Source of the DNA: Oceanospirillaceae bacterium
GTDB taxonomy: Bacteria > Pseudomonadota > Gammaproteobacteria > Pseudomonadales > Litoribrevibacteraceae
Direction of reading: 5' to 3'
Assembly: GCA_015665455.1 (NCBI GenBank)
Contig: JADFAD010000004.1
Coordinates: forward strand, 62,001-126,000
DNA length: 64,000 nucleotides
The notes under the pieces: model-generated
What the model saw: only the letters and a program-made list of their open reading frames with translations
Database searches by the model: none
Told to the model about the DNA's origin: nothing
Shown here: in pieces, positions 7,956-14,398 of the stretch
Numbering within the stretch: position 1 is the stretch's first letter
Layout of the letters: each line of letters begins with the position of its first letter
Translations under genes and position numbers: made by a program

Positions 7956-8588
7956 ATGTTGATCGAAGTCGATATGGAAGCGGATCAGCTTCATCGTCTG
8001 TTACTGGGTGTTTCTTTTTTTAATGATTTAAAAAAGCTCGGTGAAGAGCAATCTCAGATTTTAATATCATTGGCTCGAATATATAAAGCGTCGCCAGGCG
8101 AAGTCGTTATCTACAAAGGTGACATTGATTCTTCTATTTACTTTTTGTTGAAGGGGCAGCTGGAAGTCTATTCAGGTGAGACCGTAAAAGCGGAAGAGAA
8201 AGTAAACTACATTTCGCCGGGTGAAAGCTTCGGTACGTTTGCAATGATCAATGGGAATGAGCGTACAGCGACCATTGCAGCCGATGAGAATTGCCATGAG
8301 GTTGTACTTTTGTCTCTTAATGCGGAGCTTTTTGCTGATCTGTATAACCATGATTTGGTCAGTTTGGGGTCCAAACTGGCTTTTTATCGAATGGCTTGCC
8401 ATAGCGCTCGTTGGAAGTTGGAAATGTACCGCATGGAACACGCTGATTGCCCGTTAGTGAACAAGCTTCGAGATGTGAAGCTCTTTTTAGGACAAAAAGA
8501 CACTCAAGAAGAACTTGAAGCCCTAAAAGATCAAGCACAAGCCCTTTCTGATTTATTAAATCAATGGAATCAATACTTTAATAGTTAG
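7956..8588 (+). CDS. Cyclic-nucleotide-binding-fold protein without DNA-binding domain
   Basis: A 210-residue protein whose residues 35-135 form a cNMP-binding beta barrel (PGEVVIYKGDIDSSIYFLLKG, shortened here to its recognisable core, then the phosphate-binding cassette). The cassette reads FGTFAMINGNERTATIAA: the arginine is kept, but the glutamate that normally contacts the cyclic nucleotide ribose is threonine, so binding of cAMP is doubtful. The C-terminus is helical and coiled-coil-like (DTQEELEALKDQ) with no helix-turn-helix, so it is not a CRP-type transcription factor. AGGAG precedes the ATG. Role unknown; a sensory or scaffold role is inference. Confidence 0.85.
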   Translation: MLIEVDMEADQLHRLLLGVSFFNDLKKLGEEQSQILISLARIYKASPGEVVIYKGDIDSSIYFLLKGQLEVYSGETVKAEEKVNYISPGESFGTFAMINGNERTATIAADENCHEVVLLSLNAELFADLYNHDLVSLGSKLAFYRMACHSARWKLEMYRMEHADCPLVNKLRDVKLFLGQKDTQEELEALKDQAQALSDLLNQWNQYFNS

Positions 8589-8654
8589 CGTCTTCAAAAT
8601 GAGTCTGGTCTCATTTAATATGAAGCCTAACTTTACATTGTTTACAAGATGATA

Positions 8655-8670
8655 TGTGACTTTTGTCACA
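8655..8670. promoter_or_regulatory. Perfect CRP/Vfr-type binding site
   Basis: TGTGACTTTTGTCACA contains both ideal half-sites TGTGA and TCACA separated by 6 bases, in an AT-rich context. It lies 98 bases before the GTG of the large lipoprotein gene. A TAGAAT -10-like hexamer at 8725-8730 would place the site near -75. Confidence 0.65.
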
Positions 8671-8767
8671 TTTATTGGCCGGTGTTTGGTTGTTTGAAGA
8701 CTGCTATTCCAGTAATGTGTTTATCTAGAATGATCCTTCTAATTTATCGTTTTGCCTAGGAGGCGAA

Positions 8768-11560
8768 GTGAATCTTTTTAAATCTGTACGTATTTCTACA
8801 AAAGCAATAAAGACAATCAGTGCTGTTTCTGTTCTTGCTGTTTTAGCTGGTTGTGATGAGAGTGGCGATTCAATTGGTCCAAAGCCCCCTATTACAGTAA
8901 ATGGCCAGGTGATGAAAGGGGCTTTGGTTGGTGCTCCTGTAAACATTTTTAGAGCTGACTCAGGAGGAAATATACCAATTTCGCCAAACGAAGATGGAGT
9001 CGAAGAAGGCTTGTATACGGATGAAAATGGTGAATTCAGTATTGAATTGAACGGTGACGATTATCGTGATAAGACGCTTGTGGTTAAAGTGGGCAGTACG
9101 ATTTGTACCTCTGAAACTTGTGAGGGTTCTAATGGTGCTACAGTTAATCAGGATGAAGAGTACTTTCTAGGTAGTTATCGTTGCGACGACCCTAATGGAT
9201 GTATAGATCCTACGGATTTGTCAATTGTTGCTTTTGGTGAGTTAGTTCCTTTAGATTTTGAACTCATTTCTGTGGTTCCTATCATTGAAAACTCAAGCTC
9301 AATCGACAGCCAAGATATTGGTATATCTGTATTAACGACCCTTGCAGTTGAAGAGATTCTTTTACTAGGTGGATATAGTGAGCTTTTTGCTAGGGCAGGA
9401 AATCAAAAAATTGCTGAAGTCTTCCAATTAGATGGAATAGATCTTGTTTCACAGCCAATGGTTGATGTTAGTAATCTTTCCAGTGCGGTTGAAAGTGATG
9501 AAACTTGGCTTCTATCAGTAGTTAATGCAGGAATCATAGCATCTAGTACGAAACCCTCTAATGTTGTATCTCAGACAACAATGGGTGAGGCTTTGACTGC
9601 ATTAAAGCAAGAGTATGAAAATCGAAGCAACCAATTGGTTTACAATAACTCTACTGAGAACGATCTAGATTTAAGCGCTTTTTACGAAGTTGCGCAAAGC
9701 ATTACTAACCGACCGAGTGTTACTGGTTTTGTTTCCGATTCGGCGAAGGAATCGCTTACAGAAAAGGAAACGTTTATAAACTCACAGACGCCAGATAGTA
9801 GAACGGATGAAACTCTTGACGTTTCTCCTGATCAAGATACGTTGGACGCGCTGGCGGATGCTCAATCTTACATGTTTGATACAACTGATTGGTATACGGA
9901 CACCGTTGCTCCAGGCACGACGGCGCACACCAAGTTTGATTTTATGATGGACAGTATGCGAGCAGGTCAGCGAGAGTCTATTGGCTATATGGAAACATTA
10001 GGTAATGATTTCACGTTGGTATTAGCAGCTGCCTTGAATTCTATTATTGATTCAAACCTTTCTTCAGCCGTGACGCTTAATTCTACAGATAAAGACGGTA
10101 ACGCAGTAACGGCCACTTTAACCCCTGTTTCAGGCGGTTATACGGTGGAAGGTGATTATTTAAATTCCAGTTTCGACATTAAGTTTTCTGTGTCTGAGAC
10201 AACGAATGATGAAGGTGTTCTTCCTGATAATCCTCCTGAAGGCGAAGAAGATGATCGAGTTTTCCGGTTTGATATAGATCCTGATGCTTCAGATGTTGAA
10301 TTTGCAGCGTCAAATGAAGGGTTGACGTTGAACTTCAATACAGACTCAAACGCAGGCAATGATTCAGCGGTAAGCCTTCAAATTGATTCCGAATTCGATG
10401 GTACTGAGGCGACAACCGTTAGATCTTCTTATCGTTGGGAAGATATTACGCTAGCTCAAACAGACATTGGTAGTTACGATCAAACATTAGGGCGTATTAC
10501 AATTGATGGCCAGTTAATCTTTTCTATGGAACATGTGGCTGACACGATTCAACGCGAAGACCTTGATGGGGACGGTGAAACAGACACGTTTAATGTGCCA
10601 AGAGTGGATGGTAGAGAGTTTGTATTTTTACAGTTCGGTATTAACGATCCTTTAAGCCCCGTTGCCAGTAAATTTCGTTTGACGGTTGCAAATACGGATA
10701 CACAAACAGGGGATACATGGCCTGTAAGCTATTTATTTAGGGTATTGAATCACGTTTCTTCAGGAACGGAAGGTTACAGTGCTGAAGGCTTTGGTTCATT
10801 TGATCAAGACTATTTGACTGGCACTGGTAGCAGTGATTGGGGGGAGACGTCTTGTGATTTTCTTCCTGTGTCCTATGCTATCTCGTTCAGTCATAACACG
10901 TCAGACGATGAAACGTTTAATGATATTGACGTTGTTCTTGATACCAGTATTCTTGATGAAGACGATAATGTAGAGAATTTGGCCTATGCTTTGTCTGTTG
11001 TTCGTGAGAGTACACAGCTTCAAGCTCAAATTAAATCTCTAAAAGATCAAGATGAGCTTTGCTCTGTTTCATTTCAAGCGTCGGATGGTTCTACTTCAAC
11101 AGTTGATTTCTACGACTCGACAACGATCAGTGAGTCAGGATCTTATAATGATCGTGTTGTTTTGTATGTCGGCTTGGGCGATGTCACAAACAACCATTCA
11201 TTAACCTTTTCAGATGACAATGCGACAGGCTTAATTACTTATGATGATTGTGAGAATTTTGGCTCGTACTCTGCGACAGGTGGTGACCCTTTGGGTCGGC
11301 TTTATAGTTGTGACACACCAGAAACAGGCGGTGATGATGAACAATGTTTAATAGATGGCGCGTATACCGATTTTAGTTCTGGTTTGGTTTCGGGTGAGAA
11401 GATTGAGAGGGAGAACGGAGAAATTACTGTAACGAATGATAACTACAGTTCTTGCTCTGATTATGATTCCGGCACTGGCGAAAATGAGTGGGAAGTACGT
11501 TATATTGATGGCACCATTCAGGTTCTACCTTTCGACTTAACAGGCTTCGGTGTTCAATAA
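8768..11560 (+). CDS. Large acidic lipoprotein of unknown function (930 aa)
   Basis: The GTG start is chosen because AGGAGG sits 4 bases upstream. The signal peptide ends in a lipobox LAGC (lipidated cysteine about residue 29), so the protein should be anchored in the envelope. Residues 40-110 resemble a carboxypeptidase-regulatory or Ig-like domain (VNGQVMKGALVGAPVNIF and YTDENGEFSI). The remaining 800 residues are rich in Asp, Ser and Thr, with scattered cysteines near the C-terminus that could form disulfides, and match nothing I recognise. It stands alone between a CRP-like site and a strong terminator, so it is probably a separately regulated gene. Confidence 0.85.
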   Translation: MNLFKSVRISTKAIKTISAVSVLAVLAGCDESGDSIGPKPPITVNGQVMKGALVGAPVNIFRADSGGNIPISPNEDGVEEGLYTDENGEFSIELNGDDYRDKTLVVKVGSTICTSETCEGSNGATVNQDEEYFLGSYRCDDPNGCIDPTDLSIVAFGELVPLDFELISVVPIIENSSSIDSQDIGISVLTTLAVEEILLLGGYSELFARAGNQKIAEVFQLDGIDLVSQPMVDVSNLSSAVESDETWLLSVVNAGIIASSTKPSNVVSQTTMGEALTALKQEYENRSNQLVYNNSTENDLDLSAFYEVAQSITNRPSVTGFVSDSAKESLTEKETFINSQTPDSRTDETLDVSPDQDTLDALADAQSYMFDTTDWYTDTVAPGTTAHTKFDFMMDSMRAGQRESIGYMETLGNDFTLVLAAALNSIIDSNLSSAVTLNSTDKDGNAVTATLTPVSGGYTVEGDYLNSSFDIKFSVSETTNDEGVLPDNPPEGEEDDRVFRFDIDPDASDVEFAASNEGLTLNFNTDSNAGNDSAVSLQIDSEFDGTEATTVRSSYRWEDITLAQTDIGSYDQTLGRITIDGQLIFSMEHVADTIQREDLDGDGETDTFNVPRVDGREFVFLQFGINDPLSPVASKFRLTVANTDTQTGDTWPVSYLFRVLNHVSSGTEGYSAEGFGSFDQDYLTGTGSSDWGETSCDFLPVSYAISFSHNTSDDETFNDIDVVLDTSILDEDDNVENLAYALSVVRESTQLQAQIKSLKDQDELCSVSFQASDGSTSTVDFYDSTTISESGSYNDRVVLYVGLGDVTNNHSLTFSDDNATGLITYDDCENFGSYSATGGDPLGRLYSCDTPETGGDDEQCLIDGAYTDFSSGLVSGEKIERENGEITVTNDNYSSCSDYDSGTGENEWEVRYIDGTIQVLPFDLTGFGVQ

Positions 11561-11594
11561 CCTTCTATAGGTCATAGTTTTAATTAACTTGAGG

Positions 11595-11632
11595 GCAGAC
11601 GCGTCAGTTGTTACTGTTGCGTCTGCTTTTTT
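11595..11632 (+). terminator. Rho-independent terminator
   Basis: Stem GCAGACGC/GCGTCTGC followed directly by six Ts, 35 bases after the lipoprotein stop codon. Confidence 0.9.
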
Positions 11633-11681: not shown

Positions 11682-13364
11682 ATGTACAATGAATATTTTG
11701 GTCTGACTGACCGACCTTTTTCTATTGCTCCGGACCCTCGTTATCTATACATGAGTGACCAACATAGAGAGGCGCTTGCGCATTTGATGTATGGTGTGCA
11801 ACAGGATGGCGGCTTTATTCTTCTTACTGGAGAAGTTGGAACGGGCAAGACAACTGTGTGCCGTTGTTTTTTAAAGCAGTTGGATGAAGCCATTGATGTC
11901 GCCTACATAGTAAATCCAAAACAAACTGCATTAGAGTTGCTTGAGTCAATGTGTGATGACTTGGGTATTGCCCGGGTGCAAGATGATGTTTCCATTAAAT
12001 CTCTTACCGATGTTATAACCAGTCGACTCTTACTTAATCATTCACAAGGTAAAAACACCGTTCTGTTAATTGACGAAGCTCAGAACCTGTCCGTTGATGT
12101 ACTTGAACAGTTACGTCTTTTAACTAATTTAGAAACGGATCAAAAAAAGCTTCTGCAAATTATTCTTTTGGGACAACCAGAGTTACTTGATCTATTGGCT
12201 AAGCCAGAATTAAGGCAGCTTTCTCAGCGTGTTACTGCTCGATTTCATATGGATCGATTGGATCGCAAGGACATCATTCCATACGTTCGTCATCGATTGG
12301 CCGTTGCCGGCTGTAGAATGTCTTTATTCCCCGAATCAACAGCCAAAGTGATTGAGCGTGCGAGTGGTGGTGTCCCTCGATTAATAAATCTTATTTGCGA
12401 TAGAACGTTGCTTGGTGTGTATAGCAGTAATGGTAATACGGCAAGCATTAAAATTTTGAAGAAAGCAGCGAAAGAAGTACTTGGCGAACAAAAGAATGGA
12501 GCAAATCAAGGGCGTTTAAATACTAAGGTCGCCATAGTTTGTATCTTTTCTGTTCAGTGTTTAATGTTTTTAGCTTGGTTGCTATTGAGAAATGATGCTC
12601 CTGTAGGAAGGGCCGATAATGAAGCTGTGATGATCGAAGTCCCGGATCCAGTTGTTGAAAGCGAGGGTCCTGAAGTACAACAAAATTACGATCACTTAGG
12701 CGCGTTTAAATCCTTGGCGGGTATCTGGGGGATTGAAGATTCCTCTAATAGCTGGACTCAGCTGTGTGATTCCCTATCTTTAACTCGAATAGCGTGTGTG
12801 AGTGATAATATTACTTGGAATAAGTTGGAGAAAATTAATCGGCCAATGGTGGCGACGGTTTTATTTCAGGGTGTTGTCAATCGTATGCTTGTGACCAGAT
12901 TAATTGAAGGGAGTGAGTTGGAAGTGCAGCTCACTAATGAGTCTGGAGAGACGTATCAATCTACTGTCTCTAGAGATGTATTTGAGCAAATTTGGACCGG
13001 AAAAGTTCACTATCTTTGGTTGCAGCCACAAGTGAGTGGGTTGCTGTTGAGGCCTGGAGATATACACCCTTACGTTCAAGCGGTAAGGGGAGTTTTGATG
13101 ACGAACCCCATCGGTGATGATGTATATGATAAGGCGTTATCAGATCTTGTTCGAAGTTTTCAAAAGACCTCAAACGTTACCAGTGATGGTGTCATTGGTC
13201 CTGAAACAATCATGTTATTAAATTCGATATCCGAAGCGGTTCCAATGTTATTCACGCCCAATGAAAGATCGACCCTAAAACTAAAGGGGAGCGATTCAGG
13301 TCAAGTCTCGGCTTCTAACATAAAAGACAGTGAAGCCGTTCTCTATGCAAAGGAGAATAACTGA
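11682..13364 (+). CDS. gspA: GspA/ExeA-type AAA ATPase with peptidoglycan-binding domain
   Basis: A 560-residue ExeA-like protein. It has an N-terminal AAA domain with Walker A GEVGTGKTT (residues 50-58) and Walker B VLLIDEAQ (about 129-136), one transmembrane helix near 285-305, a middle domain, and a C-terminal PG_binding_1 domain (about 465-520, FQKTSNVTSDGVIGPET). In Aeromonas, ExeA with ExeB remodels peptidoglycan so that the type II secretin can assemble. Here no other gsp genes are in the window, so the partner secretin is elsewhere or different. The start has a weak ribosome site. It overlaps gspB by one base. Confidence 0.88.
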   Translation: MYNEYFGLTDRPFSIAPDPRYLYMSDQHREALAHLMYGVQQDGGFILLTGEVGTGKTTVCRCFLKQLDEAIDVAYIVNPKQTALELLESMCDDLGIARVQDDVSIKSLTDVITSRLLLNHSQGKNTVLLIDEAQNLSVDVLEQLRLLTNLETDQKKLLQIILLGQPELLDLLAKPELRQLSQRVTARFHMDRLDRKDIIPYVRHRLAVAGCRMSLFPESTAKVIERASGGVPRLINLICDRTLLGVYSSNGNTASIKILKKAAKEVLGEQKNGANQGRLNTKVAIVCIFSVQCLMFLAWLLLRNDAPVGRADNEAVMIEVPDPVVESEGPEVQQNYDHLGAFKSLAGIWGIEDSSNSWTQLCDSLSLTRIACVSDNITWNKLEKINRPMVATVLFQGVVNRMLVTRLIEGSELEVQLTNESGETYQSTVSRDVFEQIWTGKVHYLWLQPQVSGLLLRPGDIHPYVQAVRGVLMTNPIGDDVYDKALSDLVRSFQKTSNVTSDGVIGPETIMLLNSISEAVPMLFTPNERSTLKLKGSDSGQVSASNIKDSEAVLYAKENN

Positions 13365-14398
13365 TGTCATATATTCTTGATGCATTAAGAAAATCCGAAC
13401 AAGAGCGCAGAAATCAAGAGGTAGTTGGGTCTTTCGAGAGTTCTATGATGAGTGCCTCTGCAAATCAGGCACCGGATCGTAAGTTTTTATTGGTTACTAT
13501 TGTTGTTTTACTGGTTCTGGTGAATCTTTCTGTGCTTGCTTTTATTTTTAAAGACTCTTTATTTCAGGCGCCTAGATCACATGGTGAAGTTGTTTCGGAT
13601 ACGTCAACTCATCGTGAGGGGCGATCTAATTCTGAATTGAATGTTAAATCAGCTGTGATTAACGGGGGGCAACCTGAATACAATCAGGGCAGAGGCTCAA
13701 TAGATAATCGTAGGGTTGATGAGGCACCAAATAATGTTCAGAGGTCTATTGACCCGCGAGTGGCGTCATACGCAAGAGATCACTATCAGGAGCAGTCTAG
13801 GCAAGTGTCAAGCGTGGCCTCTGACTTGAATAGAGTCGCGGTGGTTGAATCCTATGCGCCTCAGCCAGAGGTTATAAGACCTAGAGCTATATCAGAGAGA
13901 GACAGGGATTTAGGTGTGATTTCTAATGTCGAGTACCAAGAGCCTGTGAAAAGTGGGATTTCACAAAAATATCAAGATTTCCAAAGTGGGGAATCAAGAC
14001 CCAAGTACGATCTTGTGAATATGAGCTCTAGACCTTCGATAGCGAACCCGTTAGAAGATATCTTGAATGACCCTCAAGTTATTGCACCTAATTCGGGCCA
14101 AGTGCAACAAAGGGCTCAGCAGAAATACCTAACGGCTGCTGAGATATCAAGGTTACCGAGAATTAAAGAGCTGTCACTTGAGCAGCAGGCAAAGGTGCCT
14201 GTGATCAAGTTCTCTGGTCACTTGTACTCGTCTAGGCCTGAATCACGGAGTGTGCGTTTTGGTGATAGAAAGTACAAAGAAGGTGATTGGTTAGATAATA
14301 ATATTGAACTCCAGACCATAACAGAGGATGGCGTTGTATTTAATTTGGATGGTCACATGTTTTATATGTCCTCATTTGAAGATTGGTTAGGTAAGTAG
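13364..14398 (+). CDS. gspB: GspB/ExeB-type secretion accessory protein
   Basis: A 344-residue protein. The N-terminus SYILDALRKSEQERR is the hallmark of GspB/ExeB. One transmembrane helix (about 41-63) follows, then a long polar, probably disordered region. A C-terminal T2SSB-like domain (about 275-344) ends in VVFNLDGHMFYMSSFEDWLG. It partners GspA in the inner membrane. The ATG overlaps the gspA stop as TGATG, with AGGAG upstream, which implies coupled translation. dinG follows after 10 bases. Confidence 0.9.
   Translation: MSYILDALRKSEQERRNQEVVGSFESSMMSASANQAPDRKFLLVTIVVLLVLVNLSVLAFIFKDSLFQAPRSHGEVVSDTSTHREGRSNSELNVKSAVINGGQPEYNQGRGSIDNRRVDEAPNNVQRSIDPRVASYARDHYQEQSRQVSSVASDLNRVAVVESYAPQPEVIRPRAISERDRDLGVISNVEYQEPVKSGISQKYQDFQSGESRPKYDLVNMSSRPSIANPLEDILNDPQVIAPNSGQVQQRAQQKYLTAAEISRLPRIKELSLEQQAKVPVIKFSGHLYSSRPESRSVRFGDRKYKEGDWLDNNIELQTITEDGVVFNLDGHMFYMSSFEDWLGK

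Follow-up and report, generated by a model that had tools for sequence, protein, structure and literature searches.

The window (the whole 64,000-nucleotide stretch of DNA that was analysed) carries on its forward strand a gene for a 930-residue lipoprotein (8768..11560), which opens with a GTG start codon at 8768 and is preceded by a ribosome-binding site, AGGAGG, in the sequence (8758..8763, + strand). A lipobox LAGC with the Cys at residue 29 was read by eye, and the residues from the lipid Cys onward are CDESGDSI. Downstream of the gene we found a terminator-like strong hairpin followed by a T-run (11591..11630, + strand, −23.7 kcal/mol). This element, which was absent from the list of a simple terminator scan, bears out the initial annotation, in which the lipoprotein gene had been given a terminator of its own. 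Upstream, the lipoprotein gene adjoins a gene for a protein with a cyclic-nucleotide-binding domain (7956..8588, + strand; PF00027, 55.1 bits, cut-off 27.5). Downstream lie a gene for an AAA ATPase of ExeA/GspA-like type (11682..13364, + strand), for which AAA_22 matched above its cut-off, GspA_C39 resemblance reached 17.2 bits (below the cut-off of 27) and the GspA label is our own reading, and the gene for type II secretion protein B, GspB (13364..14398, + strand; PF16537, 53.9 bits, cut-off 28.4). The 179-bp intergenic gap in front of the lipoprotein gene holds a CRP/Vfr-type palindrome, ATGTGAC-TTTT-GTCACAT (8654..8671, no strand assigned), with the core TGTGA-N6-TCACA at 8655-8670.

To characterize the lipoprotein, we compared it with domain, structure and genome collections. 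It gave no Pfam match above the cut-off and no NCBIfam match, and a PDB profile search with it returned one match (E 0.28), which was taken as chance and not as a relative. AlphaFold2, run on two sequences, yielded no usable fold (mean pLDDT 31). These results agree with the earlier description of the product as an unknown envelope protein. Of 293 genomes in the order, 2 carried the lipoprotein at full length, and weak, partial matches were seen at two more loci (L006 and L007). When a two-row profile was used, two genomes were matched among 369 from the class, namely the genome itself and, weakly and in part, one other (L057); a relative from another genus of the family (G006) was absent from these matches despite carrying the gene, and was presumably not drawn in the sample. 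In a contig scan, the pattern made for the lipoprotein was matched 60 times, with no relative among the matches. We also observed that the N-terminal region weakly resembles the N-terminal portions of other large proteins whose remaining parts are different (L006, L007 and L057), and judging from these sequences it is perhaps a shared N-terminal module.

The upstream cyclic-nucleotide-binding protein shares 83% identity with its counterpart in G006 and about 30-45% with relatives in many genomes of the order. A nucleotide-binding cassette normally carries Glu at a position where this protein has Thr; the 13 further rows of the alignment show Asp, Thr or Ala there. Since no DNA-binding domain was matched in it and the usual cassette Glu is replaced, this protein was rejected as the regulator of the site. 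The surroundings of relatives of the protein were also searched for the neighbouring genes. Neither the lipoprotein nor the ExeA-like protein nor GspB was matched in any of the 80 loci kept out of 118 confirmed ones (up to 6 kb per side), or in 28 loci of the order (flank of up to 1.5 kb).

The 16-mer at positions 8655-8670 of the window, read directly from the sequence, is TGTGACTTTTGTCACA, and its centre lies 105.5 bp 5' of the 930-codon lipoprotein gene. The two-fold symmetric TGTGA-N6-TCACA arms that mark a CRP/Vfr operator are present, and the palindrome at 8654-8671 is perfect over 7 bp per side, with an inner C-G pair that also matches beyond TGTGA/TCACA. The exact pattern occurs once in the whole window, at 8655-8670, which confirms the perfect CRP site reported there by the initial annotation. 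In shuffled windows, 0.08 exact sites were expected per window (8 of 100 shuffles had one), while within the 179-bp intergenic gap a perfect site arose in 2 of 5000 shuffles and, with first-order resampling, in 0.1% of 3000 sequences. With up to two mismatches allowed, the window contained 29 sites against 32 expected and thus showed no excess, so that only the exact match carries weight. The palindrome can also be drawn as a 7-bp hairpin (−8.6 kcal/mol) standing 65 nt past the stop codon of the upstream gene, and the genome encodes an FNR-type regulator (292 bits, cut-off 228). Even so, it is very improbable that the palindrome serves as the terminator hairpin of the upstream gene or as the site of an FNR-type regulator. 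As an intrinsic terminator it was rejected, being a stem without a T-run, and it was not listed by the terminator scan, the same scan that had passed over the hairpin at 11591. Both arms of the palindrome read TGTGA/TCACA, unlike the TTGAT/ATCAA arms of FNR-type sites.

To find a regulator for the site, we searched the genome for Crp-type proteins, and three proteins with a Crp-type helix-turn-helix above the Pfam cut-off were detected. The one encoded on contig C10 (L002) scored 370 bits against the CRP equivalog model (cut-off 266), its best solved match was P. aeruginosa Vfr (5e-105), and its DNA-recognition stretch of 26 residues is identical to that of P. aeruginosa Vfr. A class I adenylate cyclase is encoded as well (404 bits, cut-off 27), which gives the host a means of making cAMP. 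Judged by these matches, the genome has a genuine CRP/Vfr, and the objection that the initial annotation had raised against itself, a genome devoid of CRP/Vfr, is excluded.

Across the genome, seven exact sites were found against 5.6 expected from base composition, and extrapolation from the window shuffles gave an expectation of about 6; the reversed pattern, taken as a control, had two exact matches. With at most one mismatch, 120 sites were counted against 78 for the reversed pattern in this genome, and 109 against 82 in G006. Because seven exact sites were seen with 5.6 expected, an excess over base composition is not clear genome-wide and the count alone is weak evidence. The location of the sites is better evidence. 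Judged against mechanically called ORFs of 70 aa or more, six of the seven are intergenic and 5' of a gene (P about 2e-6 at 8.4% noncoding, the estimate that greedy ORF calling gave for the window; 7e-5 at 15%). The genes behind these six sites encode FimV, a GspH-type pilin, a DUF6160 protein, a chalcone-isomerase-like protein, a small DUF3391 protein and the 930-residue lipoprotein. The DUF6160 site (L040 2245-2260) falls within the longest ORF that mechanical calling gives (with a TTG start at L040 2198) but 60 bp before an ATG at 2321, and was counted as intergenic by judgement, the G006 protein also starting at the equivalent ATG. The seventh exact site falls within an ORF that we take to be NrdG-like.

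Conservation of the sites was assessed against one genome, G006, the sole family relative compared; the genus of the window is itself represented by one genome. Five intergenic sites were comparable, the DUF3391 gene falling outside this set for lack of a full ortholog in G006 (39% identity over 61 aa) and the site of the NrdG-like ORF being left out. The results showed that four of the five are kept in G006 with zero or one mismatch (fimV, 0; DUF6160, 0; pilin, 1; chalcone-isomerase-like, 1); a single match with zero or one mismatch has a chance of 0.7-1.6% in such gaps. The pilin and chalcone-isomerase-like orthologs are 57% and 64% identical, respectively. At fimV, the sites of the two genera (L043 2387-2402 and L046 1736-1751) have identical arms (10/10) and agree at 1 of 6 spacer positions. 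The DUF6160-type exported protein has one exact site here and two in G006 (L049 1825-1840 and 1921-1936); the distance to the start is 60 bp both for the site here and for the nearer of the two in G006, and the exact site of the GspH-type pilin (L045 2269-2284) has a counterpart in G006 with one mismatch (L051 2166-2181). G006 contains six exact sites, and every one of them lies between ORFs (80 aa or more): fimV has one and the DUF6160 gene two, another precedes an ORF that is presumably GGDEF-like, and the remaining two lie between convergent ORFs.

The lipoprotein promoter behaves differently. By ORF reading, G006 has the same gene order (cyclic-nucleotide-binding gene, lipoprotein, ExeA-like, GspB-like, helicase-like) and its lipoprotein is 54% identical, yet the site is absent from its lipoprotein promoter, where the best place has 4 mismatches of 10, a level reached by 98% of resampled sequences. 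The palindrome is thus not conserved in this relative, and because it is absent there, the reservation of the initial annotation that a lack of conservation would count against the site applies in part. Conservation at an orthologous promoter is supporting evidence for a CRP/Vfr operator and does not strictly define one. The stretch of the gap nearer the lipoprotein gene, including TAGAAT, is better conserved in G006, and a perfect half-site TGTGA at L038 6460 lies further from this conserved stretch than the window site does. Weak binding of CRP/Vfr at the G006 lipoprotein promoter is possible, since Vfr sites can be degenerate according to PMC9563714 and PMC8787478.

We further scored both gaps against the P. 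aeruginosa Vfr consensus, which PMC8787478 gives as ANWWTGNGAWNY:AGWTCACAT. The best place in the lipoprotein gap scored 13/18, a value that 32% of resampled gaps reach (P 0.32), and the best place in the G006 gap also scored 13/18 (P 0.22). The verified P. aeruginosa fimU site reaches 11/18 on the same consensus and is thus degenerate. With 13/18 in both gaps and 11 for a verified site, the Vfr-consensus score does not help to decide.

These comparisons bear on whether the palindrome is a chance match without effect, the lipoprotein being transcribed from a CRP-independent promoter common to G006. The loss of the site in G006, where the TAGAAT stretch nearer the gene is retained, is what such an account predicts; some of the seven exact sites may be chance with 5.6 to about 6 expected per genome, and one of them sits within an ORF. 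Chance would nevertheless place a perfect site in just this gap in about 0.04-0.1% of cases, and 6/7 exact sites are intergenic. Weighing the shuffles, the reversed-pattern control, the genome-wide location and the conservation, we give a chance origin reduced weight and regard it as possible but rather doubtful.

To examine how the site might act, we considered its distance from candidate promoters, both of which were identified by consensus match only. The best −10-like hexamer, TAGAAT (8726..8731, + strand; the same in G006), has a poor −35 and would place the site centre at −75.5 relative to an inferred start at 8738. A weak promoter candidate, TTGTTT-N17-TAATGT (8690..8718, + strand), in which the weaker −10 hexamer TAATGT starts at 8713 with TTGTTT 17 bp 5' of it, would place the centre at −62.5 relative to an inferred start at 8725. 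The promoter geometry is ambiguous, as it depends on the promoter chosen. PMC6301791 describes strong activation by E. coli CRP at −61.5, −62.5, −71.5 and −72.5 and hardly any at −76.5, with cooperativity factors of 105 at −71.5 and 1.27 at −76.5. Activation by CRP/Vfr is possible on this geometry, yet it is not predicted by the better −10. CRP/Vfr might accordingly bind in a non-activating register and repress the lipoprotein gene, or have no effect by itself. The best −10 lends itself to this view, −75.5 being close to the position at which the E. coli factor is as low as reported in that source. The weaker promoter, however, would put the site at a good activating position, and the E. coli spacing rules may not hold here; we consider repression or lack of effect unlikely.

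Our preferred explanation is that the palindrome is a real CRP/Vfr site, to which cAMP-CRP/Vfr binds and thereby changes lipoprotein transcription, the gene being a lineage-specific target of the cAMP regulon; we hold the evidence for this explanation as a whole to be evenly balanced. Binding of CRP/Vfr at the site is likely, and the odds that CRP/Vfr controls the lipoprotein gene are about even. What the sequence shows is the site, its place at a promoter, the genes for the regulator and the cyclase, and the sites conserved at other promoters; binding, the direction of the effect and control of this promoter are inferred. When cAMP is high, cAMP-CRP/Vfr would bind 8654-8671, and transcription of the lipoprotein gene (8768-11560) would then change, most likely rise. 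The lipoprotein gene would have been added to the cAMP regulon, or the site kept in this lineage only, while the other targets of the regulon, fimV and a pilin gene among them, are conserved. The palindrome is thus a plausible, lineage-specific and otherwise ordinary element of a well-known kind, and the initial interpretation, cAMP-dependent control of an envelope protein, is partly supported. If the preferred explanation is true, the cAMP-CRP/Vfr regulon would gain one more lineage-specific target, and there would be a first hint as to when this orphan lipoprotein, found at full length in two genomes here, is made. The CRP-type sites at the fimV, pilin, DUF6160 and chalcone-isomerase-like genes, common to two genera, make the core of the regulon predictable in the family, and this by-product may be the more useful result.

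The neighbourhood also points to a possible route of export. For lipoproteins that reach the surface by type II secretion (T2SS), Gly/Ser- or Asn/Asp-rich motifs after the lipid Cys are described in PMC12802150. The residues after the lipid Cys are DESGDSI here and DSGSGDS in G006, and together with the T2SS neighbours they suggest that the lipoprotein may be exported to the surface by type II secretion. A bolder version appears improbable to us: a surface lipoprotein particular to the family and exported by the T2SS would have joined, in this genus alone, a cAMP-Vfr regulon of fimV and pilin genes, and would be produced along with the pilus machinery on surface sensing.

Compared with known T2SS-exported surface lipoproteins, the window lipoprotein differs in lacking any domain match. 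It resembles PulA and InvL, as presented in PMC12802150, in being a large lipoprotein with Asp/Gly/Ser-rich residues after the Cys in both genera; an Asp directly follows the lipid Cys, as the same source reports for PulA, and the lipoprotein gene has genes for GspB and an ExeA/GspA-like protein beside it. In P. aeruginosa, Vfr binds and directly activates the promoter of the minor-pilin gene fimU, according to PMC8787478. The GspH-type pilin gene here has an exact site 5' of it, with one mismatch in G006, although this is another gene than the lipoprotein and the published fimU site is itself degenerate. The activation of fimU by Vfr supports the view that the pilin site, and with it the motif itself, works as a CRP/Vfr operator in this genome. 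Relative to the P. aeruginosa Vfr consensus, the outer and spacer bases of the lipoprotein site fit poorly (13/18). It shares with cAMP-CRP/Vfr operators the exact pentamer arms, the 6-base spacer, the intergenic place 5' of a gene, and a genome that encodes CRP/Vfr together with a class I adenylate cyclase.
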